Assembly (NCBI GenBank): GCA_017525225.1
Contig: JAFXTB010000097.1
Location: 1 to 32,704, forward strand
Length of the DNA: 32,704 nucleotides
Reading direction: 5' to 3'
Source: Kiritimatiellia bacterium
Lineage (GTDB): Bacteria > Verrucomicrobiota > Kiritimatiellia > RFP12 > UBA1067
The notes beneath the pieces are model-generated. The model was not told where the DNA came from, did not search any database, and saw nothing but the letters and a program-made list of their open reading frames with translations. The stretch's first letter is position 1, and every line of letters starts with the position of its first letter. The position numbers were made by a program, and so were the translations under genes. Positions 1-16,815 of the stretch are shown here, piece after piece.

Positions 1-767
1 AGCGTCTGGATCGGCGCGATGGTGATCGAGTCGCCGGTGTGGACGCCCATCGGGTCGAGGTTTTCGATCGAGCAGACGATCACGGCGTTGCCCGCCCTGT
101 CGCGCATGACCTCCATCTCGAACTCCTTCCAGCCGACGAGCGACTCCTCGATGAGTACCTCGTGGTTGAGCGACGCCTCCAGACCGCGTTCAACGATGTC
201 CGCGAACTCGTCGGCGTCGTGCGCGATGCCGCCGCCCGTGCCGCCGAGCGTGAAGCCGGGCCGGATGATGAGCGGCCAGGAGCCGATCCGGCGCGCGATG
301 GCATCCGCCTCGGCGGACGAATGGGCGCTTCCAGATCTAGGCATGTCGAAGCCGAGCTCCGCCATGGCCGCCTTGAAGAGATTGCGGTCTTCGGCCTTCT
401 CGATCGCCGCCGCGTTCGCACCGATCATCTCCACGCCGCACTCCGCGAGGACGCCGTCCCTCGCCAGACCCGTTGCTATGTTCAGCGCCGTCTGCCCGCC
501 AAGCGTGGGCAGGAGCGCGTCGGGCCGTTCCCTGCGGATGATCGCCGCGACCGAATCGACCGTCAGCGGCTCGATGTACGTGCGCTCGGCCATCTCGGGA
601 TCTGTCATCACCGTCGCGGGATTGGAATTCACCAGGACTATCTCGTAACCTTCCCTGCGCAGGGCCTTCACGGCCTGGACGCCCGAATAGTCGAACTCGC
701 AGCCCTGGCCGATGACTATCGGCCCCGAGCCGATGATCATGATCTTCTTCAAGTCTGTACGCTTCAT
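1..767 (-). CDS. carB: Carbamoyl-phosphate synthase large subunit, N-terminal part (runs off the window)
   Basis: This is the N-terminal 255 residues of the large subunit, which makes carbamoyl phosphate from bicarbonate, ATP and ammonia channelled from CarA, for pyrimidine and arginine synthesis. The protein starts [20 protein letters not shown] and continues through [18 protein letters not shown], a TLGGQTALN loop and a glycine-rich [12 protein letters not shown] loop. These are the hallmarks of the first ATP-grasp carboxyphosphate domain. The start is ATG at 767-765, which overlaps the pyrG stop as ATGA, so translation is probably coupled. Only the 3' end is missing, because the gene leaves the window. 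It is the third gene of the leftward carA-pyrG-carB operon. No repeat insertion was seen in the visible part, unlike its two upstream neighbours. Confidence 0.95.
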
Positions 768-2482
768 TTCGACTTCCTCTTCAATGCCGCCGCCACAAGC
801 CCTACGAAGAGCGGATGCGGTGCCGTCGGCCGCGACTTGAACTCCGGGTGGAACTGGCACGCGATGAAGTACGGATGCTTCGGAAGCTCCACCACCTCGA
901 CAAGCTTGCTGTCCGGCGAGGTGCCGCTCACCTTGAGGCCCGCCTTCTCCAGCTCTTTCCGCGCGTCGCTCTCGTACGCAAGCTCGTAGCGATGGCGATG
1001 GCGTTCCGAAATGGACAGGGAAGGCGTGGCAGGGGCATTTGTCCCGCATACCCCCGGGCGCGCGGGACGCGCGCCCCTACCGTACAGCCGCGCCGCGAGC
1101 GAACCCTTCTTCAGCAGGCACGGGTACGCGCCAAGGCGCATCGTACCACCCTTCTGCGTGATGCCGCGCTGCTCTTCCATGAGGTCTATGACGGGATGCG
1201 TCGTGTTCTCGTCGAACTCCGTGGAGTTGGCGTCCTCCCAGTCGAGCACGTCGCGGGCATATTCTATCACCGTGCACTGCATCCCGAGGCAGATGCCGAG
1301 GAATGGTATCTTCTTCTCGCGCGCGTACCGTATCGCGGCGATCTTCCCCTCCACGCCACGCGAGCCAAAACCGCCTGGAACCAGAATGCCGTCTATGTCT
1401 TTGAACCACGGAATACACTGAACACGCGGAATGTTTCCGTTTGTTCCGTGGTTGATAATTTCCTCCGCTTCGATCGGCACCACCTCCACCTTGCAGTCGT
1501 TCTCCATTCCTGCATGCTGCAGCGCTTCGTATATCGACTTGTACGCGTCGCGGATCGAGATGTATTTCCCGACAAGCGCAATACGGCAACGCTTTTTCGG
1601 CTGCGTGGCCTTTCTGACGAGTGTGTCCCACACCGTGTGCTTGACGGGCCAGATGTCGAGATGCAGCTGCCGAAGCACCTGTTCGTCAAGCCCCTGCCGG
1701 CGGAGTTCGCGCGGCACAGCGTAGACGCTGTCCGTGACGTCCTTCTCCTCGATCACGCATTCGCGACGGACGTTGCAGAACATCGCGAGTTTCTGCAGAT
1801 GCTCCTCCGGGATGGTCATCTCCGTACGGCACACAAGGATGTCGGGGATGATGCCGATGTTGCGGAGCATGCCTACGGAATGCTGCGAGGGCTTCGTCTT
1901 CAGCTCGCCGGCGGCCTTGAGATAGGGCACAAGCGTCAGATGCACGAAGCACGTGTTCTCCACCCCCTCCTCGAAACGGAACTGCCGCGCAGCCTCGAGA
2001 AACGGAAGGCTCTCGATGTCGCCGGAGACGCCCCCGATCTCGCAAAGGACGATGTCGGGTGCAGGTTCGTCCCCATGCGCCTCGCCTGCGCTATGGATTG
2101 CGGCCTTGATCTCGTCCGTGATGTGTGGCACCACCTGTACCGTGCCGCCAAGGTATCCGCCGGCCCGCTCGCGGGCGAGAACCGCCGAGTAGATACGGCC
2201 CGAGGTGAAGTTGCTAGCCTTGGTGCAGGTCACGCCCGCGAAGCGTTCGTAATGGCCGAGGTCTAGATCAGTCTCAGCCCCGTCGTCCGTCACGAACACC
2301 TCGCCATGCTGGTAGGGCGACATCGTGCCGGGATCTACATTGAGGTACGGGTCGAGCTTCTGCATGAACACCTTGTAGCCGCGGCTCTTCAGAAGCAGCG
2401 CCAGCGACGCGCTGGTCACACCCTTGCCGAGCGAACTCACCACCCCGCCTGTGATGAACACGTATTTGACTTGCTTTTTCAT
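764..2482 (-). CDS. pyrG: CTP synthase carrying two in-frame insertions
   Basis: CTP synthase aminates UTP to CTP with glutamine and ATP. The 572-residue product has the N-terminal amidoligase domain ([16 protein letters not shown], then the [11 protein letters not shown] and [12 protein letters not shown] stretches) and a C-terminal class I glutaminase domain with nucleophile Cys398 in GICLGMQ and the His545/Glu547 pair in QFHPE. It is longer than the usual roughly 540 residues. The excess sits at residues about 344-360 and 468-485, each a palindromic element in a loop of the glutaminase domain. An upstream in-frame ATG at 2518 would add 12 residues. I prefer 2482 because MKKQVKYVF matches the family start and a purine-rich AAAGGGAAA precedes it. 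The gene lies 49 bp after carA and overlaps carB, so CTP synthesis is tied to carbamoyl phosphate supply. Confidence 0.95.
1028..1081 (-). repeat. 54-bp GC-rich palindromic element inside pyrG
   Basis: The ends GGCAGGGGC (1028-1036) and GCCCCTACC (1073-1081) are inverted repeats with one mismatch. The interior is a GC-rich palindrome with GGGCGCGCGGGACGCGCGCCC in its right half. The element adds 18 codons between the LYG strand and the conserved [10 protein letters not shown] segment of CTP synthase, where Escherichia coli PyrG (recalled from memory) has only a few residues. The insert is rich in Gly, Arg, Pro and Ala. The GTAGGGGCGCGCGTCCCGCG style resembles dispersed intergenic repeats of other bacteria, but copies elsewhere in this genome cannot be checked here. 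Confidence 0.7.
1404..1453 (-). repeat. 50-bp palindromic element inside pyrG
   Basis: Perfect 10-bp inverted ends, AACCACGGAA (1404-1413) and TTCCGTGGTT (1444-1453), enclose a core with further GGAA/TTCC pairs. It encodes about 17 residues ([18 protein letters not shown]) between AEEI and [11 protein letters not shown]. In ordinary CTP synthases this is a short surface loop before the first strand of the glutaminase domain. The reading frame is kept. Confidence 0.65.
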
Positions 2483-2531
2483 GGCTTGCCCGTTTCCCTT
2501 TAGGTACAAATGCCGCAAAGGACTTCACCGA

Positions 2532-3887
2532 TCATCTCTCTGCACCCTCTGCGGCCTTTGCGGCCAAAACCAGCTCCTTAAACCGTTCAAAAAGATACGC
2601 GCTGTCGTGCGGACCGGGACACGCCTCTGGGTGGTACTGCACCGAGAACGCGGGGAAGGTCCTGTGGCGCACGCCCTCAATCGTGCCATCGTTGAGATTT
2701 ACATGCGTGACCTCCAGCGTGTCCGGCAGCGAATCCGCGACGACGGCGAAATTGTGGTTCTGGCTCGTGATCTCCACCTTGCCCGTGGCAATGTTTTTCA
2801 CGGGATGGTTGCAGCCGTGGTGCCCGAACTTGAGCCTCGCCGTCCTCGCGCCGCAGGCGAGCGACAGCAGCTGGTGCCCCAGGCAGATGCCCATGAGAGG
2901 AACCTTGCCGAGCAGTCTCTTGATGTTCTCGATGGCGTATGTGACGGCAGCGGGATCGGCCGGGCCGTTCGAGAGGAACACGCCATCCGGCTTCATGGCC
3001 AGAACGTCCTCTGCGGAAGTCTTCGCCGGGACAACCGTAACCTTCGCCCACGACGCCAGCGATCTGAGGATGTTCGTCTTCACTCCGAAATCGTAGCATA
3101 CGATGTGAAATGTTGCCAATGTGGAAGTGTTGCCAATACCATTGTTGCCAATTGCCAATGGTTGATTGGAATTATTGGAACTGGGAATTGGGCTTGGCAA
3201 CATTTTCACATTGGCAACACTTGTAGGTTCAGCATCAAACTCATACGCCTTTTCGCATGTCACCTTTGCGGCATAGTCCTGCCCGTCAAGGCCCGGCCAT
3301 TCGCGCGCCTTGCCAATGGCCCACGATTCCCCATTCCCCATTCCCCGTTCCCCATTCCCCGTTCCCCATTCCCCGTTCCCCGTTCCCCATTCCCCATTCC
3401 CCGTTCCCCGTTCCCCATTCCCCGTTCCCCGTTCCCCATTCCCCGTTCCCCATTCCCCAACACACAGATATGCCTTCCTGTTCCCGTGCTCCCTGATATG
3501 CAGCGTAAGTGCCCGTGTGTCGACGCCGTAGATCCCTGGCACGCCATTCTCCCTGAGGTAGTCGTCCAGGCTCTTCTCGCTCCTCCAGTTGCTTGGTACG
3601 GCGAGGTCGCCGATGACAAGCCCCGAAAGAAAAAGGGCGCGGCTTTCCGTGTCCGCGCCATTTACTCCGTAGTTGCCGACTTCGGCAGTGGTGAGGGTGA
3701 CGAACTGCCCTGCGTACGATGGATCCGTCAGAATCTCCTGGTAGCCACTCATGCCGGTATTGAAGACTACCTCGCCGAGAGCATCCTTCTTCGCGCCGAA
3801 CGCGACGCCGTGAAACACCGTCCCGTCGTCCAGCGCAAGAAACGCCGCCCGATCCCGCTCCGCTTTCCACTTCTCGGTATAATCCAT
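2532..3887 (-). CDS. carA: Carbamoyl-phosphate synthase small (glutaminase) subunit with repeat-derived insertions
   Basis: CarA hydrolyses glutamine and passes ammonia to CarB. The N-terminal domain ([30 protein letters not shown]) is followed by a class I glutamine amidotransferase domain with Cys335 in GICLGHQ and His419/Glu421 in QYHPEA. At 451 residues it is far above the usual 360-390. Residues about 144-188 are a Gly/Asn/Glu/Arg stretch written by 19 heptamers. Residues about 223-259 come from a palindromic TTGCCA element lying in the interdomain linker just before [11 protein letters not shown]. The last ten residues ([10 protein letters not shown]) are three 9-bp units. All catalytic residues remain, so I take it as functional. 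The start has GAAAGG at 3896-3901. It is the first gene of carA-pyrG-carB, under a probable sigma-54 promoter. Confidence 0.95.
2538..2564. repeat. Three 9-bp tandem units forming the CarA C-terminus
   Basis: CTCTGCACC, CTCTGCGGC and CTTTGCGGC follow one another on the + strand. Read on the minus strand they give the tripeptides AAK, AAE and GAE just before the carA stop at 2532-2534, so the array has become the protein tail. Confidence 0.7.
3111..3219. repeat. TTGCCA-type palindromic repeat inside carA
   Basis: The left end TGTTGCCAATGTGGAAGTGT (3111-3130) is the near-perfect inverse of the right end TGGCAACATTTTCACATTGG (3195-3214) and its continuation CAACA. The middle is made of further TTGCCA and TTGGAA words. 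The same right end recurs with one base changed at 8507-8528 in the glnA-purF spacer, so this is a family with at least two copies in the window. Here it encodes about 37 residues in the interdomain linker of CarA. Confidence 0.75.
3326..3458. repeat. Heptamer tandem array (19 units of RTTCCCC) inside carA
   Basis: There are nineteen uninterrupted 7-bp units, ATTCCCC or GTTCCCC, with variation only at the first base. Because 7 is not a multiple of 3, every frame reads the same 21-base cycle. On the coding strand this is the heptapeptide GE(R/W)G(T/M)GN, which contains no stop in any frame; the reverse strand is also stop-free. The same unit recurs at 14047-14099 in gltB. Confidence 0.95.
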
Positions 3888-3910
3888 GCTTTTGGCCTTT
3901 CAAAGGTAAA

Positions 3911-3927
3911 AGCACATACCATGCCAA
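3911..3927 (-). promoter_or_regulatory. Probable sigma-54 promoter of carA-pyrG-carB
   Basis: Read leftward the box is TTGGCA-TGGTA-TGTGCT, with GG at 3925-3924 and GC at 3913-3912, exactly ten bases apart as sigma-54 -24/-12 elements require. The start site would fall near 3900, leaving a leader of about 13 nt that still holds the GAAAGG ribosome site. The same box precedes glnA and gltD. Confidence 0.6.
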
Positions 3928-3958
3928 GCCCTATTCTTACTGGTTCAGGTACATTGTC

Positions 3959-3973
3959 TTACACATGGTGTAA
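3959..3973. promoter_or_regulatory. Palindrome TTACAC-ATG-GTGTAA, possible activator site
   Basis: This is a perfect 6-3-6 inverted repeat between carA and the glycyl-radical gene. It lies about 60-75 bp upstream of the inferred carA start site. Its TTACA-N5-TGTAA skeleton recurs at 10866-10880 between glnA and gltD. The rest of the 257-bp spacer (3888-4144) holds no gene I can support. Confidence 0.45.
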
Positions 3974-4102
3974 ACCCATGCCACCAGCACTTACATATTG
4001 CGGAAAATGCGCTATGTGCATATCGCTTGCCCTAATACGCCAGAATGTCTCCGGTGGGGAAGAAGATATCCTTTTACGGCTCATAGCAAGGCGTAAATGT
4101 GG

Positions 4103-4108
4103 TACAAT
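4103..4108 (+). promoter_or_regulatory. Candidate -10 box of the glycyl-radical enzyme gene
   Basis: TACAAT differs from TATAAT at one base and lies about 40 bp upstream of the start codon. I see no good -35 element at the proper distance, so this is a weak call. Confidence 0.35.
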
Positions 4109-4150
4109 ATAGACGCCTTGGACCGATGGTAGACAACAGAAAGGATGAAC

Positions 4151-6538
4151 ATGAAGTCTGTGATTGGACTGGTGGCATTTATCATGGCGGCGCCAACCTT
4201 CGCCGCGCTATATCCAGACTTCGGCCGGGTGGAGGGGCTTGATTTCGCCGAAATCGGTCCTGAGGAATATCGTCCGCTCCGCCGCGAGCTGCGCGCGTTC
4301 TATCCGCGGGAATGCCACGAGCCGTCGAAGAGCGAAAAGGTCGCTGAATCGTTCAAGAAGATCTACCGGCTCGCTTCCGAGTGGTCTGCGGCGCACCCGG
4401 GACATTCGGCCCTTGAAATGCGCCGTTACGCCTATTCGCTTCAGCGTGAACACTTTGTACCGGTGCTCTTCAAGGAATCTCCGTTCTACTTCGAGGCGGG
4501 TCTCAACGGCGGCTACCATCGGGGGATGTCGAAAGGCGACACGCCGCCGCCAGGACGTGTCACACGGGTACTCTGCGACAGGTTCTTCAAGGAGCGAAAC
4601 CTGATTCCCGAAGAGGCCTGGAAGCGAAAGAGCGCCCGTGGCCGGCACATGTTCGGCATCGCCTGCGGTCCGTTCGTCGACGAGGTCCACGACCTTCCGC
4701 CATTCCATGCCGTCTTTACGAAAGGCTTCGGGGGTGTCCGCAAGGAGGTCGCCGCCGCGCTTGCGGCCTGTCCTGCCGACGACAAGGATGGACGTGCCGA
4801 GCTAGAGGCGATGGCGGATGCGCTTGATACGATCCATGCCCTGCAGCTCAGATTCCGGGACGAGGCAATGCGGCAAGGGCGTGAACAGCGCATGGTGGAG
4901 GCGGCATCCCGATGCCCATGGGAACCGCCGCAGACATTCTACGAGGGCCTGAACACGCTCTGGTTCATGCGCGAGATGATGGCGTACGTGGATGGCCTGT
5001 GCTGCAATGCGCTCGGGCGGCCCGACGCCTGGCTGATCGATCTCTATCGCCGCGACCTGAAGGAAGGGCGCATGACCGAGGCTGAAGCCCGGGATCTCGT
5101 TTCAAGGTTCATGATCCTCTCGGACTGCCACATCGACGGCTTTGCCATCATCAACGGAGGTGCCGACCAGGAGGCCGAGATGCCGATCACCCTCGGCGGG
5201 TGCGATGCCGAGGGCAGGCCCGTGTGGAACGAGCTCACACGGATGTTCCTCGAAGAGCATGAACGCCTCAAGCTTGTCTTCCCGAAGCTCCATGTGCGGT
5301 TCTCGGCCAAGTCACCGAAGGAGTACCTTGAGAGGATAGCAAAGGACGTTCTCAACGGGCATTGCGTCTTCGCGATGTTCAACGACGACATCTACATCCC
5401 CGTATTCCTCAGCCGCGGCATACCGCTCGAACGCGCGCGCGACTACGAAGGGACCGGATGCTGGGACGGGTATATCGACACGCTCACGGACGCCTCCGTC
5501 GGCAACTACACGAGCGCGATCCATCCGCTCATCGCGGCGATCCACCGCAACTTCGCGGCCGGCACGGAGTCAGGGTTCGAACTGCTCCCCCTGGATGGTG
5601 CGCGCAGCTTCGAGGAATTCCGCAGGATAGCATTCACGAACAACCGGCGGATGCTGGCGGCGATGCTTGGCGACTATACCCGGTATGGCGGCGCCTTCGC
5701 GCAGGTGTTCCCATGCCCCCTCTATTCGGCGTGTCTCGATGGCTGCATTGAAAGACGTCGCGACTGCCGGGCGGGCGGCATGAAGTGGGCGCCTCGCATC
5801 ATCAACATCGGCTTCCTGCCGAACGTCGTAGACTCGATGTGCGCGGTCGAAAAGGTAGTGTTCAAGGACAGGTTCTGCACCCTGGACGAGTTCCTCGCGG
5901 CCGTACGCGCGAACTGGGCGGGCCAACGCAACGAGGATATCCGTCAACAGGTGCTGAAAGCGCCGTACTGGGGCGACAACAGCCCCGAGTCGAACCGCGA
6001 GATGCGGTTCTGGATAGATTCCACCTCGGAGTTCCTTCGTCCTCTCCGCAGCGACCAGGGCGGCGAATACGAGATGGCCTGCTGGATCTACCGGGAGTTC
6101 CTCATCTGGGGGGAAAGCAGCGCGGCCACTCCCGACGGACGCCATGCGGGGGACCGGTTCGCCCAGGGCTTTGCGCCAAGCGAATACCGCTGCAGGTCCT
6201 CCATCGCCGATGTCTTCCATGCAATCGCCTCGCTCGACCATACGAAGCTGTTCGCATCCAACGCCAACCTCACGTTCGGTGGAGAAGGCCTCACGCCGGA
6301 GACGCTGGCGGCATGCTTCAGGGTCTACGCGCTTGGCAAGGGGCATCTGCTGCAGCCGAACAGCAACGACGTGGAGACCCTTCTCGACGCGCAGAAGCAT
6401 CCTGAACGGCATCTCGACCTGATGGTGAAGGTATGCGGCTATTCTGCGCGCTTCATCACGCTCTCTCCGCGCTTCCAGCAGGAGGTCATCGACCGGCACC
6501 GGCTGAAGTACGGGGCGTCCGCGCGCGTGGCGCGGTGA
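4151..6538 (+). CDS. Glycyl-radical enzyme (pyruvate formate-lyase family) with signal-like N-terminus
   Basis: The 795-residue protein has the PFL-type fold and the usual family length. The thiyl-radical Cys437 sits in EGTGCWDGY and the radical-bearing Gly763 in VKVCGYSARFITLSP near the C-terminus. Known dehydratase- and lyase-type members mostly read GCVE at the cysteine; here Asp439 replaces that Glu, and Lys/Cys replace the Arg/Ala of RVAGY. The substrate cannot be named. The N-terminus (MKSVIGLVAFIMAAPTFA then ALYPD) looks like a Sec signal peptide, which is odd for an enzyme that must be activated in the anaerobic cytoplasm. I chose ATG 4151 because AGAAAGG lies six bases upstream, whereas ATG 4145 abuts it. 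A start at 4184 would remove the signal but has only GGTGG upstream. No activating radical-SAM gene is in the window. The stop abuts the purF stop. Confidence 0.85.
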   Translation: MKSVIGLVAFIMAAPTFAALYPDFGRVEGLDFAEIGPEEYRPLRRELRAFYPRECHEPSKSEKVAESFKKIYRLASEWSAAHPGHSALEMRRYAYSLQREHFVPVLFKESPFYFEAGLNGGYHRGMSKGDTPPPGRVTRVLCDRFFKERNLIPEEAWKRKSARGRHMFGIACGPFVDEVHDLPPFHAVFTKGFGGVRKEVAAALAACPADDKDGRAELEAMADALDTIHALQLRFRDEAMRQGREQRMVEAASRCPWEPPQTFYEGLNTLWFMREMMAYVDGLCCNALGRPDAWLIDLYRRDLKEGRMTEAEARDLVSRFMILSDCHIDGFAIINGGADQEAEMPITLGGCDAEGRPVWNELTRMFLEEHERLKLVFPKLHVRFSAKSPKEYLERIAKDVLNGHCVFAMFNDDIYIPVFLSRGIPLERARDYEGTGCWDGYIDTLTDASVGNYTSAIHPLIAAIHRNFAAGTESGFELLPLDGARSFEEFRRIAFTNNRRMLAAMLGDYTRYGGAFAQVFPCPLYSACLDGCIERRRDCRAGGMKWAPRIINIGFLPNVVDSMCAVEKVVFKDRFCTLDEFLAAVRANWAGQRNEDIRQQVLKAPYWGDNSPESNREMRFWIDSTSEFLRPLRSDQGGEYEMACWIYREFLIWGESSAATPDGRHAGDRFAQGFAPSEYRCRSSIADVFHAIASLDHTKLFASNANLTFGGEGLTPETLAACFRVYALGKGHLLQPNSNDVETLLDAQKHPERHLDLMVKVCGYSARFITLSPRFQQEVIDRHRLKYGASARVAR

Positions 6539-8416
6539 TCAGTACGAACGGCCGACCTTGTGTCCAAGGTAGTTCTGAAGCGCGCTTCGGAGTACCCTGT
6601 AGCCGCCGGGCGTCGGATAGTCGCCCGTGAAGTACCAGTCCCCTATCGAGGGAGATGAGGAAGCCGAAGGCGGTGCAAGGCATCTGCGAAGTGCGTCAAT
6701 CGTCTGGTATACGACGGCGACCTCGGCCTTCATTCCCGGCGGCGTGAGAATCCGGGCGATCTCGGCCGCGTGCCGTTCCTCGGGGAAGCGGGCATAGAGC
6801 CCGGCCAGCGGGTTCAAGGCGGCATGGTCCGCCAGGGCCTTGTGCAGCTCCGATTCGGCGCTGTCGCCCAGCAGGTTCACGAGCGCCCTGAAAGCGACAA
6901 GTTCGCCGAGCGTGGACATGTCGATGCCGTAGCAGTCGGGATAGCGGATGGGTGGGGCGGACGACGCTATCACGATGCGCTTCGGCCCCAGCCTGTCGAG
7001 CATTGGCAGGATCGCGTTTTTCATCGTATTGCCGCGGACGATGGAATCGTCCAGCACGACGAGCGTGTCCCTGCCGGGCCGCACGAGCCCGTATGTGACA
7101 TCGTACACATGCTTGTAGAATTCGCGGCGTGCTGCGGCATCGGCGATGAAGGTGCGGAACTTGGCGTCCTTCACCGCGATCTCGCCGAAGCGGGGAAACG
7201 CCTTGCCACGAAGGGCGCAGAGCCTTTTCTCGTCGCCACCGGACGTTGGTCCATCGTGGTTGAACACATGTGAAAGCAGTTCTTCCAGAAGCCCATGGAA
7301 CGCAATGCGCGCGGAGTTCGGGATGTAGGAGAAGAAGATGTCCTCGACCGACGCATCGGAGGCGGCGAGGATCTGAGGCAGCAGGGCCGCGCCTAGCGCC
7401 TTGCGCTCACGGTGGATGTCGGCATCGTTGGCGCGAGAGAAATAGATGCGCTCGAAGGAGCATGGACGGTATGCAGGTTTGAGAGACTGGGAATCGCCAT
7501 CTTCTCCATGCAGACTTTCAAACCACACATCCCCTTCCGGCGAGATTACCAGGATTCCGCCGGGCGGAAGTTCCTTCACGGCACTCGGCGGCACGTCGAA
7601 CGCGGCCTGGATGGCAGGGCGCTCGCTGGCGACGACGGCCACTTCGTCGTCGACATAGTAGAAGCCAGGTCTGATCCCATGCGGATCGCGCGTGGCGAAC
7701 GCCCAACCGTCGCCGGTCATGCCGCAGAGCGTCCAGGCGCCATCGGCGCCGCCGAGAGCGTTCGCCATCGCGGATGCGATGTCGTCCGCGTCCGCAGGGC
7801 GGCCCGCCTCCGATGCGCCATCCTCCGGCGCCCTGGGGACAAGCCGCCGCGCGAGCTCGTGCGCTATGAGTTCGGTGATCAGATAGCCGTCAGCCCTGCT
7901 TGTTGGGAACGAACCGTGCCTGCTGTAGTCGTCGAAAAGCTCAGGCGTGTTCGTGAGGTTGAAATTCCCGGCGAGAAGGATGGTATGGCAGAGTTCGCTC
8001 GCCTGATGGACGAACGGGTGGCAGAAGGCGACGTCGTTCTTCCCAAAGGTGGCATAGCGTAGATGTCCGAGGAATATCCGTTCGAACGGACGGTTCCCAT
8101 CCATGGACGCGGATGTACCAGATGGGGGCGGCCGTTCCCTTTTCGCGATCGCGCCCAGAAGATCGGCAAGCGCGGTTGACGTTGCCGACTTGAACAGCCA
8201 GTACGGCTGCGATCCTATCTCGGGATGGCTGGAGAGGATCGCCGCGCCCGCGCCGTCCTGGCCGCGGTTGTGCTGCTTTTCCAGGAGCAGGGATAGCTTG
8301 GTACCGCCGAAGTCGCCAGGCGCAGATGCGCCATCGTCTGCGCAGCGCATGGCGAATGGTGGCTTCCGCAGGACCACCATCGCCACGGCGCATTCATGTT
8401 TGACCTCGTCAGACAT
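6539..8416 (-). CDS. purF: Amidophosphoribosyltransferase, long form
   Basis: It transfers the glutamine amide to PRPP, the first step of purine synthesis. The N-terminal Ntn-hydrolase glutaminase begins MSDEVKHECAVAM, so the nucleophile is Cys9 and an eight-residue propeptide must be removed. EKQHNRGQDGAG and GHLRYAT follow as in the family. The phosphoribosyltransferase domain has the PRPP loop VVLDDSIVRGNT (Asp456/Asp457). At 625 residues it is longer than Escherichia coli PurF (505) and resembles the long KHEC-type form of Bacteroidota. The missing GTT/GT variation in the loop (GNT) is typical of that form as I recall it. It lies downstream of glnA across a 174-bp repeat-filled spacer and may share its transcript. 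AGG seven bases upstream is a weak ribosome site. Confidence 0.88.
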   Translation of the reverse strand: MSDEVKHECAVAMVVLRKPPFAMRCADDGASAPGDFGGTKLSLLLEKQHNRGQDGAGAAILSSHPEIGSQPYWLFKSATSTALADLLGAIAKRERPPPSGTSASMDGNRPFERIFLGHLRYATFGKNDVAFCHPFVHQASELCHTILLAGNFNLTNTPELFDDYSRHGSFPTSRADGYLITELIAHELARRLVPRAPEDGASEAGRPADADDIASAMANALGGADGAWTLCGMTGDGWAFATRDPHGIRPGFYYVDDEVAVVASERPAIQAAFDVPPSAVKELPPGGILVISPEGDVWFESLHGEDGDSQSLKPAYRPCSFERIYFSRANDADIHRERKALGAALLPQILAASDASVEDIFFSYIPNSARIAFHGLLEELLSHVFNHDGPTSGGDEKRLCALRGKAFPRFGEIAVKDAKFRTFIADAAARREFYKHVYDVTYGLVRPGRDTLVVLDDSIVRGNTMKNAILPMLDRLGPKRIVIASSAPPIRYPDCYGIDMSTLGELVAFRALVNLLGDSAESELHKALADHAALNPLAGLYARFPEERHAAEIARILTPPGMKAEVAVVYQTIDALRRCLAPPSASSSPSIGDWYFTGDYPTPGGYRVLRSALQNYLGHKVGRSY

Positions 8417-8437
8417 ACCAGCCTATAACTTGATCAA

Positions 8438-8531
8438 ATGTTGCCAATATCCAATGTTGCCATTCCCAAAACCCAATTCCAATTGGAACTGGCAACATTG
8501 GAACTGGCAACATTTCCACATTGGCAACATT
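8438..8531. repeat. TTGCCA-type palindromic repeat in the glnA-purF spacer
   Basis: The left half repeats ATGTTGCCA and the right half repeats GGCAACATT around a central CCAATTCCAATTGG. The whole can fold as one long hairpin just upstream of purF. The right end matches the carA copy (3111-3219) over about 22 bases with one change. Confidence 0.75.
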
Positions 8532-8552
8532 CTCCAAATTATCCCCGTTTAG

Positions 8553-8594
8553 CCACTAACCACTAACGACTAACCACTGACGACTGACGACTAA
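8553..8594. repeat. Heptamer array (six CSACTRA units) supplying the glnA stop codon
   Basis: The units are CCACTAA twice, CGACTAA, CCACTGA, CGACTGA and CGACTAA. The last unit contains, on the minus strand, the TAG stop of glnA (8593-8591). Unlike the RTTCCCC array this heptamer carries stops on both strands, in keeping with its position between genes. A related array lies at 24187-24212. Confidence 0.9.
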
Positions 8595-10711
8595 TACAGG
8601 AACAGCATGTCGCGGTATTTCGGGAGCGGCCAGCGCGAATCGGCGACATGCTTCTCAAGCGTGTCCACGGTCGTGCGCAGGGCCTGCATCGACGCGAGGA
8701 TGTCCGTCTCGAATGCGGCACCCAGCGCGCCCGTCCTGCCAAGCGCATCCTCAAGCTTGCGGATGCCGGCCTTGAGCGCATCCAGCCCGGCGCCTATCTC
8801 CACGGCATCCTCCTTCAGCGCCTCCGTGCCGCTGGAAATGCCGCACTTCTCCGCGTCCTTGAACGCCCTCACCGTATCGGCGTACTCCGCCTTGACGGCG
8901 GGGAGTATCATCTCGCTTGCGATGTCCCTCGCGCACGCGCCTTCGATCCTCACCTTCTTAGCGTATTCCTCGAGGAAGATCTCGTGGCGGCCAAGAAGCT
9001 CGCGCTTCGTCATCACGCCGTACTTCTCGAAGAGGGCGATGTTCTCCTTCCTGGCGAGCGCGGCCAGCGCGGAGGGCGTATCGGGCGCATTGGGAAGTCC
9101 GCGCTTCTCGGCCTCCTTCGGCCAGTCGGCCTCGTAGCCATTGCCGTTGAAGACGACGCGCTTGTGTTCCTTGAGCGATGCCTGCAGGATCTTCTGCAGG
9201 GCGTTGTGGAACGCGGCGGTATGCTCGCCCGGCTTTGCCTTGCCTGCGACCTTTGCACCCTCCAGCTCGCCGGCGATGCGGTCCACCGCCTCCGCCACGA
9301 TCGTGTTGAGCACCGTCATCGGCCCGGAGCAGCACACGCTCGAGCCTGGCGCACGGAACTCGAACTTGTTGCCTGTGAAGGCGAATGGCGACGTGCGGTT
9401 GCGGTCGGTGGCGTCCTTCGGGATCGCCGGGAGCGTATCCACGCCCACCTTCAACGTGCCCTTCGCCTCGTGTTTCGCGCTCTTCGGGTTCTCGATGCGG
9501 TCCAGCACGTCCGCGAGCTGGTCGCCCACGTATATGGAGATCACGGCGGGTGGCGCCTCGTTCGCGCCGAGACGGTGGTCGTTGCCCGCGCCCGCCACCG
9601 ATGCCCGCAGGAGGTCCGCGTGCCTGTCGACCGCCTCTATCACGGCGCAGAGCATCGTGAGGAACACCGCGTTCTCGTGCGGGTCGCTTCCAGGATCGAG
9701 CAGGTTCCTTCCGCCGTAGGCGACCGACCAGTTGTTGTGCTTGCCGGAACCGTTCACGCCCGCGTAGGGCTTTTCGTGGAGAAGGCACTTGAGCCCATGC
9801 TTCTCGGCGACGTTCCTGAGCGTATCCATGACGAGCATGTTGTGATCGCTCGCGAGATTCAGTTCCTCGAACTGCGGCGCGAGCTCGAACTGCGCGGGGG
9901 CGACTTCATTGTGGCGCGTCTTCGCCGGGATGCCAAGCTTCCACAGCTCGCGCTCCACATCGTTCATGAACGAGAGGATGCGGTCGGGGATCGTGCCGAA
10001 GTAGTGGTCCTCAAGCTGCTGCCCCTTCGCAGAGGGCGCGCCGAAGAGCGTCCGGCCCGTGAGGACGAGGTCGGGTCGCTTCTTCCAGTATTCCTTGTCG
10101 ATGAGGAAATATTCCTGCTCCGCGCCGAGCGTGCATCCCACATGCGCGTCGGGCCGCGCAAAGAGACGCATCAACCGCTTCACGGAACGGTCGAGCGCCT
10201 GCATGGAGCGAAGGAGGGGCGTTTTCTTGTCGAGCGCCTCGCCCGTATAGGCGCAGAACGCCGTCGGGATGCAGAGCGTCGCGCCGTTCGAGTGGCGCTT
10301 GATGAAGGCGGGCGAAGTCGGATCCCACGCCGTGTAGCCGCGCGCCTCGAACGTTGAGCGGATGCCGCCAGACGGGAACGAGGAAGCGTCCGGCTCGCCC
10401 ACTATGAGGTTCTTGCCGGAGAACTGCATGATCGGCTCGCCGTCCTTGATTTCAAGGAACGAGTCGTGCTTTTCGGCGGTGGCGCCCGTCATCGGCAGGA
10501 ACCAGTGCGTGTAGTGCGTGGCGCCGCGATCCATCGCCCAGTGGCGGATGCCATGCGCAACTTCGCCCGCGATGGAGGGATCGAGCGGCTTGCCTTCGCG
10601 GATCGTAGCCTGGAGCTTCTTCGCCGTGTCCTTGCTGAGGTATGTCCTTATCGCCTCTTCACCGAACACGTCGGCGCCGAAGTCCGTTGCCTTCTTTGTC
10701 TCTTCCGTCAT
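8591..10711 (-). CDS. glnA: Type III glutamine synthetase
   Basis: It makes glutamine from glutamate, ammonia and ATP. The 706 residues fit the GSIII (GlnN) family of about 700-730, not the roughly 470 of GSI. Recognisable blocks in order are FPSGGIRSTFEARGYTAWDP, a GAEQEYFLID metal-site strand, RHNEVAPAQFELAP, NGSGKHNNWS, GAGNDHRLGANEAPP and FTGNKFEFRAPGSS. I start at ATG 10711, with AAAGGA nine bases upstream; an ATG-less extension to 10789 would run into the promoter. The gene diverges from gltDB, so ammonia assimilation by the GS-GOGAT route is encoded back to back. A probable sigma-54 promoter lies about 50 bp upstream of the start. The stop codon comes from a heptamer array. The symbol is used for function; glnN is the usual name for this type. 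Confidence 0.95.
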   Translation of the reverse strand: MTEETKKATDFGADVFGEEAIRTYLSKDTAKKLQATIREGKPLDPSIAGEVAHGIRHWAMDRGATHYTHWFLPMTGATAEKHDSFLEIKDGEPIMQFSGKNLIVGEPDASSFPSGGIRSTFEARGYTAWDPTSPAFIKRHSNGATLCIPTAFCAYTGEALDKKTPLLRSMQALDRSVKRLMRLFARPDAHVGCTLGAEQEYFLIDKEYWKKRPDLVLTGRTLFGAPSAKGQQLEDHYFGTIPDRILSFMNDVERELWKLGIPAKTRHNEVAPAQFELAPQFEELNLASDHNMLVMDTLRNVAEKHGLKCLLHEKPYAGVNGSGKHNNWSVAYGGRNLLDPGSDPHENAVFLTMLCAVIEAVDRHADLLRASVAGAGNDHRLGANEAPPAVISIYVGDQLADVLDRIENPKSAKHEAKGTLKVGVDTLPAIPKDATDRNRTSPFAFTGNKFEFRAPGSSVCCSGPMTVLNTIVAEAVDRIAGELEGAKVAGKAKPGEHTAAFHNALQKILQASLKEHKRVVFNGNGYEADWPKEAEKRGLPNAPDTPSALAALARKENIALFEKYGVMTKRELLGRHEIFLEEYAKKVRIEGACARDIASEMILPAVKAEYADTVRAFKDAEKCGISSGTEALKEDAVEIGAGLDALKAGIRKLEDALGRTGALGAAFETDILASMQALRTTVDTLEKHVADSRWPLPKYRDMLFLY

Positions 10712-10772
10712 CTTGCGTTTCCTTTCGTTGGAGGGCGACCACCAGTAGCCACCACTAGCCGCGAGCCACTTT

Positions 10773-10789
10773 AGCACAAAGCGTGCCAA
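10773..10789 (-). promoter_or_regulatory. Probable sigma-54 promoter of glnA
   Basis: Leftward it reads TTGGCA-CGCTT-TGTGCT, with GG at 10787-10786 and GC at 10775-10774, ten bases apart. It contains the TGGCACG core of the sigma-54 consensus. The start site near 10762 gives a leader of about 50 nt. This is the best placed of the three copies. Confidence 0.72.
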
Positions 10790-10864
10790 TTGCGGATTGT
10801 GGCTCTACGGGCCATGTTTCATCCGATTCCATCCATCCCGCCGTGTAATGCGGTGCCGTCGGAA

Positions 10865-10881
10865 TTTACATCTTGTGTAAA
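10865..10881. promoter_or_regulatory. Palindrome TTTACA-TCTTG-TGTAAA, possible enhancer site
   Basis: This is a perfect 6-5-6 inverted repeat between the two divergent sigma-54 boxes. It lies about 105-120 bp upstream of the inferred glnA start site and about 50-65 bp upstream of that of gltD. It shares TTACA-N5-TGTAA with the carA upstream region (3959-3973). Confidence 0.45.
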
Positions 10882-10901
10882 ATTTCAAATGGTTTTCACC
10901 T

Positions 10902-10918
10902 TTGGCACGGCGTGTGCT
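10902..10918 (+). promoter_or_regulatory. Probable sigma-54 promoter of gltDB
   Basis: The box is TTGGCA-CGGCG-TGTGCT, with GG at 10904-10905 and GC at 10916-10917, ten bases apart. The inferred start site near 10929 falls only about four bases before ATG 10933. TGCTAATAT at 10915-10923 could instead serve as an extended -10 of a housekeeping promoter, and would give nearly the same start site. Confidence 0.6.
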
Positions 10919-10932
10919 AATATGTGTACGAT

Positions 10933-12291
10933 ATGCAACGAATACATGAAATCTATCGGCCGACGGACGAGCGCAAAGGCGACTGGCGCGAAGTCGAACG
11001 CATGCTCTCCGAATCCGAGCTGAAGGAACAGACCTCGCGATGCATGAACTGCGGCCAGCCGTTCTGCCATGCCTACGGATGTCCGCTCGGGAATCTCGTG
11101 CCCGACCAGAACCGCGCCGTGGCGCAAGGCGACTGGCTACGCGCCTACGCGCTCCTTTCCGAGAATTCCGACTTCCCCGAATTCACGTCGAGGATATGTC
11201 CCGCGCTCTGTGAATCATCATGCGTGCACGGCCTCGATGAAGAGGCGGTGATGGTGCGCCAGTCCGAGAAGCGCATCATCGAGACCGCGTTTGAAAACGG
11301 CTGGGTTGTGCCGCGCCCGCCGGAAAAGGAGAATGGAAGGTCCGCCGCGATCGTAGGTGCAGGTCCGGCGGGACTCTCCGCCGCCGTCACGCTGCGGCGC
11401 AGAGGCTGGGCCGTTACGGTATATGAACGGCGTGCCGGCATCGGCGGACTGCTCCGCTACGGCATCCCCTGCTTCAAGCTCGACAAGTCGCTCATCGACC
11501 GCCGTCGCACGGTGCTGGAGGCGGAAGGCATCCGCTTCGTGACGGGCATCGAAGTCGGCAAGGACATCTCGGCGGAATGGCTGGCGCGGCGGTTCGACGC
11601 CGTAGTGGTTGCGATCGGCACGCCTGCCGCGCGCGACCTGAAGATCCCCGGACGGCAGCTCCACGGTATCCACCTCGCGCTAGAACTTCTCGAGGGACAG
11701 AACAGGTTCCTCACCGGCGAGATCGATGCACCGCCCATAGATGCCAAAGGCAGGGATGTGCTGGTGATCGGCGGCGGCGACACGGGTAGCGACTGCGTGG
11801 GCACCGCGATCCGCCACGGAGCGAAGTCCGTGACCCAGATCGAGATCATGCCGCGTCCACCGGACGAACGCGATGCCTCCACGCCATGGCCGCTCTGGCC
11901 CTACATGCTGCGCACCAGCTCAAGCCACAAGGAAGGCTGTGTACGCCGCTGGAACCTCAACTCGTTGAGGTTCGTCGGCGAGGATGGCGTTTCCGGCGTG
12001 GAGGTGGAGAAGGTGGAGTGGGAATTCTCGCCAGAGGGCAGGCCGACGAAATTCCACTCCGTGCCAGACACAAGGGAAACCATCCCCGCCAACCTGGTAT
12101 TCCTCGCGATGGGTTTCACGGGCGTACCTGCCAGCAACCCGATCGTCGAGCAGCTTGGCCTCGCCCAGACGCCGCGCACCGCGCTCATCTCCGATCCGGC
12201 GCGCCACATCTACTGCGTGGGCGACTGCGCCAGCGGTGCGTCGCTGGTCGTCCGTGCGCTAGCAAGCGGCAAATCCATCCCTCTTGACTGA
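10933..12291 (+). CDS. gltD: Glutamate synthase small subunit (NADPH-linked)
   Basis: GltD passes electrons from NAD(P)H through FAD and 4Fe-4S clusters to GltB. The N-terminal ferredoxin-like region has cysteines 37, 40, 45 and 50 (RCMNCGQPFC then GCP) and a second set in RICPALCESSCVHG. The FAD site reads GAGPAGLSAA and the nucleotide site GGGDTGSDC; GDCASGASLVV closes the FAD domain. The 452-residue length is slightly short of the common 470. A GTG at 10924 could extend it by three codons, but the inferred start of transcription lies after it, so I favour ATG 10933. No Shine-Dalgarno is visible, which fits a nearly leaderless message. gltB follows after 12 bp. Confidence 0.92.
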   Translation: MQRIHEIYRPTDERKGDWREVERMLSESELKEQTSRCMNCGQPFCHAYGCPLGNLVPDQNRAVAQGDWLRAYALLSENSDFPEFTSRICPALCESSCVHGLDEEAVMVRQSEKRIIETAFENGWVVPRPPEKENGRSAAIVGAGPAGLSAAVTLRRRGWAVTVYERRAGIGGLLRYGIPCFKLDKSLIDRRRTVLEAEGIRFVTGIEVGKDISAEWLARRFDAVVVAIGTPAARDLKIPGRQLHGIHLALELLEGQNRFLTGEIDAPPIDAKGRDVLVIGGGDTGSDCVGTAIRHGAKSVTQIEIMPRPPDERDASTPWPLWPYMLRTSSSHKEGCVRRWNLNSLRFVGEDGVSGVEVEKVEWEFSPEGRPTKFHSVPDTRETIPANLVFLAMGFTGVPASNPIVEQLGLAQTPRTALISDPARHIYCVGDCASGASLVVRALASGKSIPLD

Positions 12292-12303
12292 AAGAACCTT
12301 GAC

Positions 12304-15300
12304 ATGAACCAGCAAAGTAGAAACTCGAAAGCGGCTCGACAGGCCCGGCAGGGACAGGGTCTATACCGCCGCGAATACGAACACGACGCATGCGGAGTCG
12401 GGCTTGTGGCGAACCTCTCCGGCGAGGCAAGCCATGAAATCGTCGTCAACGGCATGACGATCCTGAAGCGGCTCATGCATCGTGGCGCCACCGGCAACGA
12501 TCCCGAGACGGGCGACGGCGCAGGCCTGCTGCTGAAGATCCCACACGGGTTCTTCAAGAAGGTTCTTGGAGGAAGGGCCTCGGACTTCGGCATCGCCATG
12601 ATATTCGGCGGCGTCGGCGAAGAGGAGAAGATCGAGAACATTGTTCGAGCCGAAGGATGCGATGTCCTCGGATGGCGCGACGTGCCGACGAATCCCGACG
12701 CCATCGGCCACGACGCCCGTGCCGTGATGCCGAGAATCCGGCAGATATTTATCGACAGTTCAGACGAGCGCCGTCTCTACATCATCCGGCGGCAGATCGA
12801 AAAGGCGGCGCCCGGCGCATACATCTGCTCATGCTCGTCGCGCACGATCGTGTACAAGGGGCTGCTCCTCGCGACGCAGATCGAGAGGTTCTACCCCGAA
12901 CTTTCCGATCCGGACTTCGTGTCGCCGTTCGCCATAGTCCATCAGCGCTACTCGACGAACACATTCCCGTCTTGGGAGCTCGCGCATCCTTTCCGGGCCA
13001 TCGCGCACAACGGCGAGATCAACGCCCTCAAGGGCAACCTCAACGCCCTCTCCGCGCGCGAGGCCTCGCTCGCCTCGCCGCTCTTCGGCGACGAGCTGAA
13101 GAAGATCCTGCCGGTGGTGCACCAGGGACAGAGCGATTCCGCCTCGCTCGACAACATGTTTGAGCTGCTCGTCGCCGCCGGACGCGACGCACCGCACGCG
13201 ATGATGATGCTCGTTCCCCAGGCATGGGGCGCAAAGTACCACATGGGACACGACGTGCGCGCGTTCTACGAGTACCATTCCGCCCTCATGGAGCCATGGG
13301 ACGGCCCCGCCGCCATCGCGTTCACCGACGGCACGAGCCTCGGCGCCGCGCTCGACCGCAACGGACTGCGCCCCGCCCGCTGGACGCTCACGAAGGATGG
13401 ACTCTTCGTCCTCGCCTCCGAGACGGGCGTACTCGACATCCCGCCAGAGGACGTTTCACGCCACGGCCGCCTCAAGCCGGGTTCGATCCTCTGGCTCGAC
13501 CTCGTGAACCACCGTCTCATGGAGGACGCCGAGATAAAGACTTTCTACGCCCGCCGCCGTCCGTACCGCCGCTGGGTCAAGGAGAACCATATTCCGATGA
13601 CCGGGCTCTTCACCGAGATCGTGCCGTCGAAGGAATGCAGCCGGGAGTCGCTCCTCGCGGCGCAGAACCGTTTCGGATACTCGCTGGAGGACATCGAGCT
13701 CATCCTGCGGCCCATGGCCGAAACAGGGCACGAACCTGTAGGGGCGATGGGCAACGACGCGGCGCTTGCATGTCTGAGGGAGACGGGGAACGGAAAGAGG
13801 AAAGCGCGGCTTTTCGACTTTTTCCACCAGCTCTTCGCCCAGGTCACCAATCCCCCGATCGACCCGATCCGCGAAGAGCTCGTGATGTCGATCATGACCT
13901 ACATCGGCAATCAGGCCAACATCCTCGCCGAAACGCCAGGACACGCGCGACTCGTGAAGATGACGCGCCCCGTGCTGACCGACGACGAACTCAACCGCAT
14001 GCGCGACATTCCGGAATTCCCGGCGAAGACGTTGTCGATGGTTGTCGGGGAACGGGGAACGGGGAATGGGGAACGGGGAATGGGGAACGGGGAACGGGGC
14101 TGGCTCAAGGAAGCGCTTGATTCGCTTGCCGAAGATGCGATGCGTGCCGTGAAGGATGGTGCGAAGATCATCATACTGTCGGACAGGATGGGGAGCGGCA
14201 ACGCAACGCAATCGGCGGCTGGCTGCGGTGGCAGGCGGATTCCCTCTCTTCTTGCCGTGGCGGCGGTCAACAAGGCGCTGGCGGAGGCAGGGGTACGCCC
14301 ATCCGTAGGCGTAGTGGTGGAATCAGGCGAGGTCCGCGAAGTGCATCATTTCGCCGTGCTGCTTGGCTTCGGCGCGACCGCTATCAATCCCTGGCTCGCG
14401 CTTGCGACCGTCTCGGAGATCGGTAGGACGGGCTGCATGCAGGGTGCCGCGAAGCATGCCGACGACAGCCCGGCCGCGCGGCGGCTCGAGGACAACGCGC
14501 CGTACCAGGTTGCCGCCAACTACATCTCGGCCGTGTGCAAGGGCATAATGAAGATCATGTCGAAGATGGGCATCTCGACACTTCGCTCCTACCGCTCGGC
14601 ACGCATCTTTGAGGCGGTCGGTCTCGGTCCGAAGCTCATGCGCGAATACTTCGGTGGCGTAGCATCGCCGGTCGGCGGGATCGAGCTGGAAGACCTGGAA
14701 GATATGGAAGTGTGCCATTGCCATTGTGAATCCACCCTTCACCCTGGCGGCGAATATCGTCTGCGCAAGGATGGCGAAGAGCATCTGTGGATGCCGCAGC
14801 GCATCGTCGACTTCCGCGAGTCGGTTCGCCATGGCGACTACGCCCGCTTCAAGCGCTATACGGATTCCATCGATTGCGACAGCCGCGTGACCCTCCATTC
14901 GCAGTTGAAGTTCCAACAACCCTCAAACCCTCAAGCCCTCAAACCTTCAAACTCCGACATCGAGTCCGTCGATTCGATTGTCAGGCATTTCGTGGGTGGG
15001 GCAATGTCGCTCGGCTCGCTCTCTCCGGAGGCGCACGAGACGATCGCGCTCGCACTGAACGGACTCGGCACCATGTCGAACTCGGGCGAGGGTGGCGAGA
15101 ATCCAGAGCGCTTCGGCACGGATAGAAACAGTGCGATCAAGCAGATCGCGTCTGGACGCTTCGGCGTGACCATCGAATACATCCGCTCGGCGAAGGATCT
15201 GCAGATAAAGCTCGCCCAGGGCGCGAAGCCCGGCGAGGGCGGACAGCTCCCCGCCCACAAGGTCAACGAGCTGGTCGCGCGCCTGCGCCATGCCAAGCCC

Positions 15301-16815
15301 GGCACCACGCTCATCTCGCCTCCGCCGCACCATGACATCTATTCCATCGAAGACCTAGCACAGCTCATCTACGACCTCAAATGCGCCAACCCCGATGCGC
15401 GCGTGTCGGTGAAGCTCGTCTCGGAGGCGGGCGTCGGCACGATCGCCGCCGGCGTCGCGAAGGCGCATGCCGACGTCGTCGTGATCTCCGGCTTCGACGG
15501 CGGCACCGGCGCGGCACCGTTGACATCGATGAAGCACGCCGGCCTTCCCTGGGAGCCTGGTCTCGCCGAGGCCCACCAGACGCTCGTGAAGAACAACCTC
15601 CGCGACAGTGTCAGGCTGCAGGTGGATGGACAGCTTCGCACAGGCCGCGACATCGTGGTGGCGGCAATGCTGGGCGCAGACGAATTCGCGTTCGGCACGT
15701 CCATGCTCGTCTCCCTGGGATGCATCCAGTGCCGCAACTGCAACCTCAACTGCTGCCCGGTGGGCATCGCCACACAGAAGGACGAGCTGCGCAGCAAGTT
15801 CGCAGGCAGGCCCGAGCACCTCCAGAACTACTTCCGCTTCCTGGCGGAAGAGGTACGGGAAACACTCGCATCCCTCGGCCTACACTCCCTCGCCGAAGCG
15901 CGTGGACGCAGCGACCTCCTCGAGATGCACGATGGTTCCCGCTTCGACTTCTCGGACGTGCTGGCCCTGCCAGATTCCCATTCCTCCGCCGACTGCATCC
16001 GTACTCCACCGGCAGGGAAGCCGAACTACGACATGCGCGAACTCATCCCCTGCCTCGCCCCCGATGGCGATACTAAGCTTGTACGCACCATATCCAACTG
16101 CGACCGCTCGGTAGGCGCGGCGCTGTCCGGACATCTCGCGAAGCTCCGCATGGATGCCGCGCGCGCTGCGGGTGGCACCTTCGACGGGCGGGACCGTCCC
16201 CGCGTGACGGTCGACTTCACCGGTGTCGCCGGACAGTCCTTCGGCGCATTCCTCGCGCGAGGCGTCACCTTCAACCTGCGCGGCGAGGCGAACGACTACG
16301 TGGGCAAATCGCTTTCTGGCGGGCTGATAACCATCGCCCCGCCGCAGGGCTTCGCCGTTCCGCCGGAGGGGAACGTCATCGCAGGCAACGTGGTCGCATA
16401 CGGCGCCACGTCGGGCGGGATATTCATCAACGGCCTCGCGGGCGAACGCTTCGGCATCCGTAACTCCGGCGCGACGCTTGTCGCCGAGGGTGTCGGCGAC
16501 CACGGCTGCGAATACATGACTGGCGGCGTGGCGGTGATCCTCGGTCCCGTAGGCGTGAACTTCGCCGCCGGCATGACGGGCGGCGTTGCCTACGTGTACG
16601 ACGAGGCGGCGACGCTCGACCTCAACTGCAATCTCGATTCCGTGGACCTCTTCCCGCTCGAAGCTGGCTCAGGGGACGAGGCCGCACTCCTCGAGCTTCT
16701 AAAGGAGCATGTCGCACTCACAGGATCGCCGCGTGCCAGTCGGCTGCTCGCCAGCTGGCCGGAGTCGCGGCACCTGTTCGCAAAGGTATCGCCAGGCAAG
16801 CCGGTGCACGAGTAG
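12304..16815 (+). CDS. gltB: Glutamate synthase large subunit carrying repeat insertions
   Basis: GltB turns glutamine and 2-oxoglutarate into two glutamates. The order is an Ntn amidotransferase domain with nucleophile Cys30 in EHDACGVG behind a 29-residue propeptide, a central domain, an FMN barrel (SGEGGENPERF, GAKPGEGGQLP, GFDGGTGAAPL), 3Fe-4S cysteines 1140, 1146 and 1151 in a C-x5-C-x4-C pattern, and the C-terminal beta-helix (GEANDYVGKSLSGG). All 1503 residues fit the family. Three repeat-derived tracts interrupt it: heptamers at residues 582-599, three 9-bp units at 794-802 (ELEDLEDME) and octamers at 873-883. A Gly/Ser/Ala-rich stretch after LSDRM (about 627-642) may be a fourth. All lie in linkers, and the catalytic residues are intact. 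GAAAGAA is a weak ribosome site. Confidence 0.95.
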   Translation: MNQQSRNSKAARQARQGQGLYRREYEHDACGVGLVANLSGEASHEIVVNGMTILKRLMHRGATGNDPETGDGAGLLLKIPHGFFKKVLGGRASDFGIAMIFGGVGEEEKIENIVRAEGCDVLGWRDVPTNPDAIGHDARAVMPRIRQIFIDSSDERRLYIIRRQIEKAAPGAYICSCSSRTIVYKGLLLATQIERFYPELSDPDFVSPFAIVHQRYSTNTFPSWELAHPFRAIAHNGEINALKGNLNALSAREASLASPLFGDELKKILPVVHQGQSDSASLDNMFELLVAAGRDAPHAMMMLVPQAWGAKYHMGHDVRAFYEYHSALMEPWDGPAAIAFTDGTSLGAALDRNGLRPARWTLTKDGLFVLASETGVLDIPPEDVSRHGRLKPGSILWLDLVNHRLMEDAEIKTFYARRRPYRRWVKENHIPMTGLFTEIVPSKECSRESLLAAQNRFGYSLEDIELILRPMAETGHEPVGAMGNDAALACLRETGNGKRKARLFDFFHQLFAQVTNPPIDPIREELVMSIMTYIGNQANILAETPGHARLVKMTRPVLTDDELNRMRDIPEFPAKTLSMVVGERGTGNGERGMGNGERGWLKEALDSLAEDAMRAVKDGAKIIILSDRMGSGNATQSAAGCGGRRIPSLLAVAAVNKALAEAGVRPSVGVVVESGEVREVHHFAVLLGFGATAINPWLALATVSEIGRTGCMQGAAKHADDSPAARRLEDNAPYQVAANYISAVCKGIMKIMSKMGISTLRSYRSARIFEAVGLGPKLMREYFGGVASPVGGIELEDLEDMEVCHCHCESTLHPGGEYRLRKDGEEHLWMPQRIVDFRESVRHGDYARFKRYTDSIDCDSRVTLHSQLKFQQPSNPQALKPSNSDIESVDSIVRHFVGGAMSLGSLSPEAHETIALALNGLGTMSNSGEGGENPERFGTDRNSAIKQIASGRFGVTIEYIRSAKDLQIKLAQGAKPGEGGQLPAHKVNELVARLRHAKPGTTLISPPPHHDIYSIEDLAQLIYDLKCANPDARVSVKLVSEAGVGTIAAGVAKAHADVVVISGFDGGTGAAPLTSMKHAGLPWEPGLAEAHQTLVKNNLRDSVRLQVDGQLRTGRDIVVAAMLGADEFAFGTSMLVSLGCIQCRNCNLNCCPVGIATQKDELRSKFAGRPEHLQNYFRFLAEEVRETLASLGLHSLAEARGRSDLLEMHDGSRFDFSDVLALPDSHSSADCIRTPPAGKPNYDMRELIPCLAPDGDTKLVRTISNCDRSVGAALSGHLAKLRMDAARAAGGTFDGRDRPRVTVDFTGVAGQSFGAFLARGVTFNLRGEANDYVGKSLSGGLITIAPPQGFAVPPEGNVIAGNVVAYGATSGGIFINGLAGERFGIRNSGATLVAEGVGDHGCEYMTGGVAVILGPVGVNFAAGMTGGVAYVYDEAATLDLNCNLDSVDLFPLEAGSGDEAALLELLKEHVALTGSPRASRLLASWPESRHLFAKVSPGKPVHE
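14047..14099. repeat. Heptamer array (seven GGGGAAY units) inside gltB
   Basis: The seven units are GGGGAAC, GGGGAAC, GGGGAAT, GGGGAAC, GGGGAAT, GGGGAAC and GGGGAAC, followed by GGGG. The unit is the reverse complement of the carA array. Relative to the coding strand of each gene the two are in the same orientation and give the same peptide, GE(R)G(T/M)GN. Confidence 0.95.
14683..14709 (+). repeat. Three 9-bp units in gltB (ELE-DLE-DME)
   Basis: GAGCTGGAA, GACCTGGAA and GATATGGAA follow in tandem and encode an acidic stretch between the FMN-domain approach and HPGGEYR. The segment differs from ordinary GltB, but with three imperfect units it could be chance. Confidence 0.45.
14920..14951 (+). 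repeat. Octamer array in gltB (CCCTCAAR units)
   Basis: CCCTCAAA, CCCTCAAG, CCCTCAAA and CCTTCAAA follow in tandem, giving PSNPQALKPSN in the linker before the FMN domain (DIESVDSIVRHF). An octamer also cycles through all three frames; in this orientation none has a stop, whereas the reverse orientation would contain TGA. Confidence 0.75.

Follow-up and report, generated by a model that had tools for sequence, protein, structure and literature searches.

The window, by which we mean the whole 32,704-nucleotide stretch of Kiritimatiellia bacterium DNA that was analysed, encodes a glycyl-radical enzyme (GRE) that is probably exported through Sec as part of a working GRE system that has shifted to the cell envelope and carries out sugar or polysaccharide chemistry (probability about 0.7). 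To our knowledge, GREs and their radical-SAM activases are regarded as strictly cytoplasmic, because SAM, low-potential electrons and the absence of oxygen are required, and a search of PMC open-access papers brought up none that describes an exported GRE or activase. What the sequences show is that enzymes and activases bear leaders distributed in a coordinated way, that the catalytic residues are intact, that genes overlap in operons and that GREs are fused to secreted carbohydrate enzymes. Where the enzyme is located, whether it is active, where the radical is installed, how SAM and electrons reach it and what it acts on are inferred from these features. The features of the window gene are as follows.

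4140..4145, forward strand: Shine-Dalgarno-like AAAGGA, 5 nt 5′ of the ATG at 4151 (sequence).
4151..6538, forward strand: GRE of the GCW clade, 795 aa, with a Sec-type leader (PF02901/PF01228 matches, PDB matches, tree).
4151..4207, forward strand: MKSVIGLVAFIMAAPTFAA, predicted to act as a Sec signal peptide with a cleavage site around residue 18/19 (hydropathy, leaders in orthologs).
4184..4186, forward strand: alternative leaderless start, disfavoured, with no Shine-Dalgarno upstream.
5456..5467, forward strand: active-site motif G436-C437-W438-D439 with thiyl Cys437 (alignment to GREs including E. coli PflD; clade counts).
6431..6445, forward strand: glycyl-radical motif VCGYS with Gly763 (PF01228, alignment).

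Judged from its sequence, the GRE ORF is intact and real. In profile searches the PFL-like domain PF02901 (238.7 bits) and the glycine-radical domain PF01228 (45.2 bits) both scored above cut-off. The first-pass annotation of 4151-6538 as a GRE with a Sec-like leader, a GCWD site and a VCGYS motif was borne out. Among PDB entries 36 distinct sequences matched, 5ymr best, followed by diol dehydratase and CutC, and E. coli PflD is 24% identical. The TIGR01774 score (240 bits) fell below the cut-off of 678, and the CutC, HypD, HpsG and HpfG equivalogs gave at best 203 bits against cut-offs of at least 1000. The tree placed the enzyme in a clade of its own. This position, far below every NCBIfam equivalog cut-off, supports the earlier suggestion of a new subfamily with an unknown substrate. 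An AlphaFold2 model from a 5-sequence alignment was poor (pLDDT 55).

As had been noted, no adjacent activase is present, none of the window ORFs matching a radical-SAM activase. The source genome, a MAG of 180 contigs and 4.2 Mb, was searched for GREs and activases. Eight PFL-like GREs were found in the profile search: the window's clade is represented on C158, C157, C29 and C148, the sister clade by three genes on C170, and a control clade by one gene on C89. Leaders are present on six of the eight: those of C158 and all three genes on C170 are of the Sec type, those of C29 and C148 of the Tat or a Tat-like type. The C157 GRE and the C89 GRE/activase pair have none, and the latter is an internal control. 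The C157 gene (L069:433-2757) stands alone among the GCW-clade paralogs of the genome in lacking a leader; its neighbours encode a BatA/VWA protein and a protein in which HZS_alpha and FGE-sulfatase domains occur. On C26 another ORF with the glycine-radical domain lies next to an NrdG-like activase and was read as an anaerobic ribonucleotide reductase.

True matches to the activase model TIGR02494 numbered two, a leaderless protein beside the C89 GRE and the C22 protein, which scored 224.8 bits against a cut-off of 174.35 and carries the radical-SAM motifs GCPLKCVWC and SGGEP. The C22 activase starts MTRKEFIASSTAFAVAPMLSAAG, immediately followed by the enzyme domain, with the Tat leader in frame. 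Its twin-arginine-type motif MTRKEFIASSTAFAVAP is an RK variant, RR being found in several orthologs. With this motif, a hydrophobic core and TatC encoded in the same genome, it has the features of a Tat substrate. Thirty-odd C22-type orthologs, 64-88% identical, were found only within the host's order among the genomes sampled; it is exactly the leader segment that separates their Tat-leadered from their leaderless forms. When the leader DNA of C22 was compared with that of G491, 2, 3 and 11 differences were counted at codon positions 1, 2 and 3, and this preference for third positions indicates that the leader is translated and that selection acts on it. Independently of leader presence, a sublineage of C22-type activases (e.g., L088, L101) has one Cys of the auxiliary-cluster CxxCxxC replaced by His or Arg (CKHHEKC), the motif being kept as CRHCAKC in sister-family orthologs.

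The orthologs of the window gene point in the same direction. In the tree the ortholog clade contains three members, all Sec-leadered by our own rule-based predictor, including both orthologs found. The one from the same genus (G414:C32) is 61% identical, and its Sec leader is preceded by AAGGAGG. Its stop overlaps the ATG of an activase gene (ATGA), thus fixing the activase start codon, and this second activase, different from the C22 type, begins with MNITRRAFAGAAAAFAAAGHGMA, a Tat leader; its radical SAM domain was confirmed by Pfam. The other ortholog (G425:C169, also L025) is 74% identical and likewise bears a Sec-like leader; a Tat-leadered C22-type activase is encoded in its genome. We infer that the C22 protein is the cognate activase of the window GRE and, by way of the ortholog, that the overlapping G414 activase plays the same part.

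The distribution of leaders was surveyed in GREs and activases from 18 genomes, all MAGs, together with all C22-type operons, and trees were built. A single leader rule of our own was applied throughout; when applied to random starts it called Sec in about 8% and Tat in about 2%. In family f1, the bacterial family to which the source genome belongs, the exported superclade comprises two sister clades, and about 44 of their 47 readable GREs have a Sec or Tat leader. This count is based on 39 leaders called by the rule and 16 genes without a call, of which 8 are truncated or frameshifted, 1 is a Sec-leadered fusion, 4 were judged Tat-leadered by eye (G330:C126 being weak) and 3 are truly leaderless (G000:C157, G491:C14 and G444:C42). 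No leaders were found in the same clades of sister families f4 and f6 (0/14), in control GRE clades (0/32) or in other activases (0/31, the G414:C32 gene excepted and a weak call at a TTG start having been rejected manually). Sister-family genes branch from within the leadered gene clades in several places in the tree, so leader presence tracks host lineage and not gene clade.

The leaders of GREs and activases are also complementary. In f1 C22-type and related operons, a Tat-leadered GRE is paired with a leaderless activase in 10 cases and a Sec-leadered GRE with a Tat-leadered activase in 8, with no Tat/Tat and no Sec/leaderless pairs (Fisher 2e-5; about 0.008 after collapse to about nine lineages). 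L026, with a Tat GRE and a leaderless activase, also conforms. Sec transports unfolded proteins and Tat folded ones, and the pairing fits this rule: a GRE folding outside has to meet its activase there, while one folding inside does not. Under the proposed mechanism, a GRE would leave the cell either unfolded via Sec or folded via Tat. The Sec-exported GRE would fold outside and be served by an activase exported folded, clusters included, via Tat. A Tat-exported GRE would fold, and possibly be radicalised, inside, or would carry a leaderless activase out with it, which would explain why its operon partner has no leader. The Gly763 radical would then generate a thiyl radical on Cys437, which would attack a substrate outside, probably a sugar or a polysaccharide-derived compound. 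As to SAM, one may speculate that the activase crosses the membrane loaded with SAM and a reduced cluster, allowing one turnover per molecule. A limited flavodoxin search of the genome yielded one family match, a 415-aa frame, and no exported electron donor.

It must be considered whether all radicals are instead installed in the cytoplasm, a Tat leader on either partner exporting the preformed GRE-activase complex and the Sec-type leaders being inefficient or otherwise used. Such a scheme would agree with exactly one Tat leader in each f1 operon with a readable partner, and with the requirement of activation for SAM. It would also suit three genomes (G420, G427 and G428) that have Sec-GREs, yet in which the activases found are only leaderless. 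However, Sec-GREs are common, and unfolding for Sec would destroy a preformed radical enzyme, so we consider this scheme unlikely. The same three genomes rule out a strict rule that every genome with a Sec-GRE has a Tat-activase; for them it must be assumed that the activase is carried by a Tat-GRE or that genes are missing. In two instances (G491:C14, G444:C42) a leaderless GRE shares an operon or cluster with a Tat-activase. In its fullest form, our preferred reading is of a complete glycyl-radical system outside the cytoplasm, in which Tat-exported activases radicalise Sec-exported GREs, Tat-GREs are radicalised before or during export, and leaders were gained in parallel on several enzymes and two activase lineages; we would put the chances of this fuller version at about even.

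Fusions bear on both the location and the substrate. Three in-frame fusions were found.

L148:4821-7952 (G465:C136): Sec leader, GH16 and a complete GRE in a single ORF.
L135:2852-6163 (G420:C37): GRE behind a GH5 cellulase-like domain.
L205:3058-4794 (G425:C15): GRE behind a 3-keto-disaccharide hydrolase domain, truncated at the contig end.

The L148 ORF is directly followed by a Tat-leadered activase, and the GRE parts of L135 and L205 are incomplete or frameshifted in the assemblies. Members of the GH16, GH5 and 3-keto-disaccharide hydrolase families usually have polysaccharides or oligosaccharides as substrates and work outside the cytoplasm. Carbohydrate-active genes are common near exported GREs, whose neighbours include GH43, GH127, GH32-like, acetylesterase and FGE-sulfatase genes, although a neighbourhood scan for the substrate found none, besides the activase, that exported GREs have in common. 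Since the fusions and neighbours both involve carbohydrate domains, the substrate is likely carbohydrate-derived. A nitrogen-linked role was also considered, as glutamine-dependent nitrogen genes (CTP synthase, CarA, amidotransferase/PurF-like, GlnA type III, GltD and GltB) surround the GRE at window positions 764-16815. It was dropped: these neighbours are on opposite strands or separate and are absent beside the two orthologs. The PurF-like protein (6539-8416, reverse strand) is a divergent amidotransferase (119 bits against a cut-off of 350) whose stop directly abuts the GRE stop. A metallophosphoesterase with a clear Tat leader (SRRDFLAG) is encoded at 20345-21409 on the reverse strand, and a similar Tat-leadered one is found in the C170 GRE cluster.

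Real leaders could also act as anchors, holding the enzymes at the inner membrane or in an internal membrane compartment while their catalytic domains stay on a cytoplasm-like side. SAM and low-potential electrons are cytoplasmic, and some leaders have no strong cleavage site or resemble lipoprotein signals (L026), which speaks for such tethering. However, N-terminal Tat and Sec leaders put the following domain outside, several leaders have clear A-x-A sites, and GREs are fused to the secreted glycosidase-type domains described above. Tethering appears somewhat less probable still than installation in the cytoplasm, and we retain export proper as the preferred reading.

The leader of the window GRE would be incidental if the start had been misread, the enzyme being cytoplasmic and translated from 4184 or later. 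The first-pass annotation had stated that the best ribosome site selects the leadered start, and this proved correct: among the ATGs at 4145, 4151 and 4184, the one at 4151 has the best-placed site, while 4145 lies directly against AAAGG with zero spacing and 4184 has no good site. The predicted leader has a mean hydropathy of 2.9 over 10 residues, an uncharged core and small residues after it. Leaderless homologs and a start at 4184 had together been named as evidence against a genuine leader; the sister-family homologs are indeed leaderless, but the start at 4184 is disfavoured, and both orthologs are leadered, one behind AAGGAGG. With the activase leader evolving as coding sequence and the ATGA overlap fixing the G414 activase start, a misread start is very improbable.

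The residues around the thiyl Cys vary within the GCW clade. The clade contains 18 GCWD, 8 GCWN, 2 GCWE and 1 GCWG sequences, the same-genus ortholog having GCWE, and the sister clade has GCYE or GCFE. Thus the Asp that had been read as replacing the Glu of GCVE is present in the window GRE, but it is not a fixed replacement. The radical-glycine motif is [V/I]CG[F/Y]S, mostly VCGFS; C437 and G763 are invariant in the GRE alignment, and across the clade neither the thiyl Cys nor the radical Gly is lost. In the clade the Trp beside the thiyl Cys is the constant element and the acid the variable one, and GCWD is typical of the clade and no lesion. The aromatic residue could stack on a sugar ring. 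The suggestion of an inactive secreted relative, retained for binding, might draw on the variable acid (D/N/E/G), which is unlike glycerol- and diol-dehydratase-type GREs, but it is hardly credible given the conserved Cys and Gly, the intact co-operonic activases that are leadered themselves, among them the one overlapping the same-genus ortholog, and the intact leadered C22 activase. As a whole, the first-pass interpretation was partly supported.

Like PFL2/glycerol-dehydratase-type GREs (TIGR01774; CutC, HypD, IslA, diol dehydratase), the window enzyme has PF02901 and PF01228 with the Cys and Gly motifs, and a TIGR02494-type activase is co-encoded in many genomes. Unlike them, its clade has GCW[DNE] instead of GCVE, f1 members have export leaders, and relatives are fused to secreted carbohydrate domains. 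The C22 activase resembles TIGR02494 activases of the PflC/CutD type in CxxxCxxC, SGGEP and a score above cut-off, but differs in the Tat leader of about 25-30 residues directly before the domain and, in the sublineage, in the changed auxiliary-cluster Cys. Other soluble enzymes are exported in the same genomes, such as the 3-keto-disaccharide hydrolase and the Tat metallophosphoesterase; in contrast to GREs, these sugar enzymes and hydrolases need neither a protein radical nor a SAM-dependent activase. If the proposed export is true, gut anaerobes could carry out radical chemistry in their envelope, which raises the question of how SAM and electrons get there, and a new route for plant-sugar breakdown would be possible.
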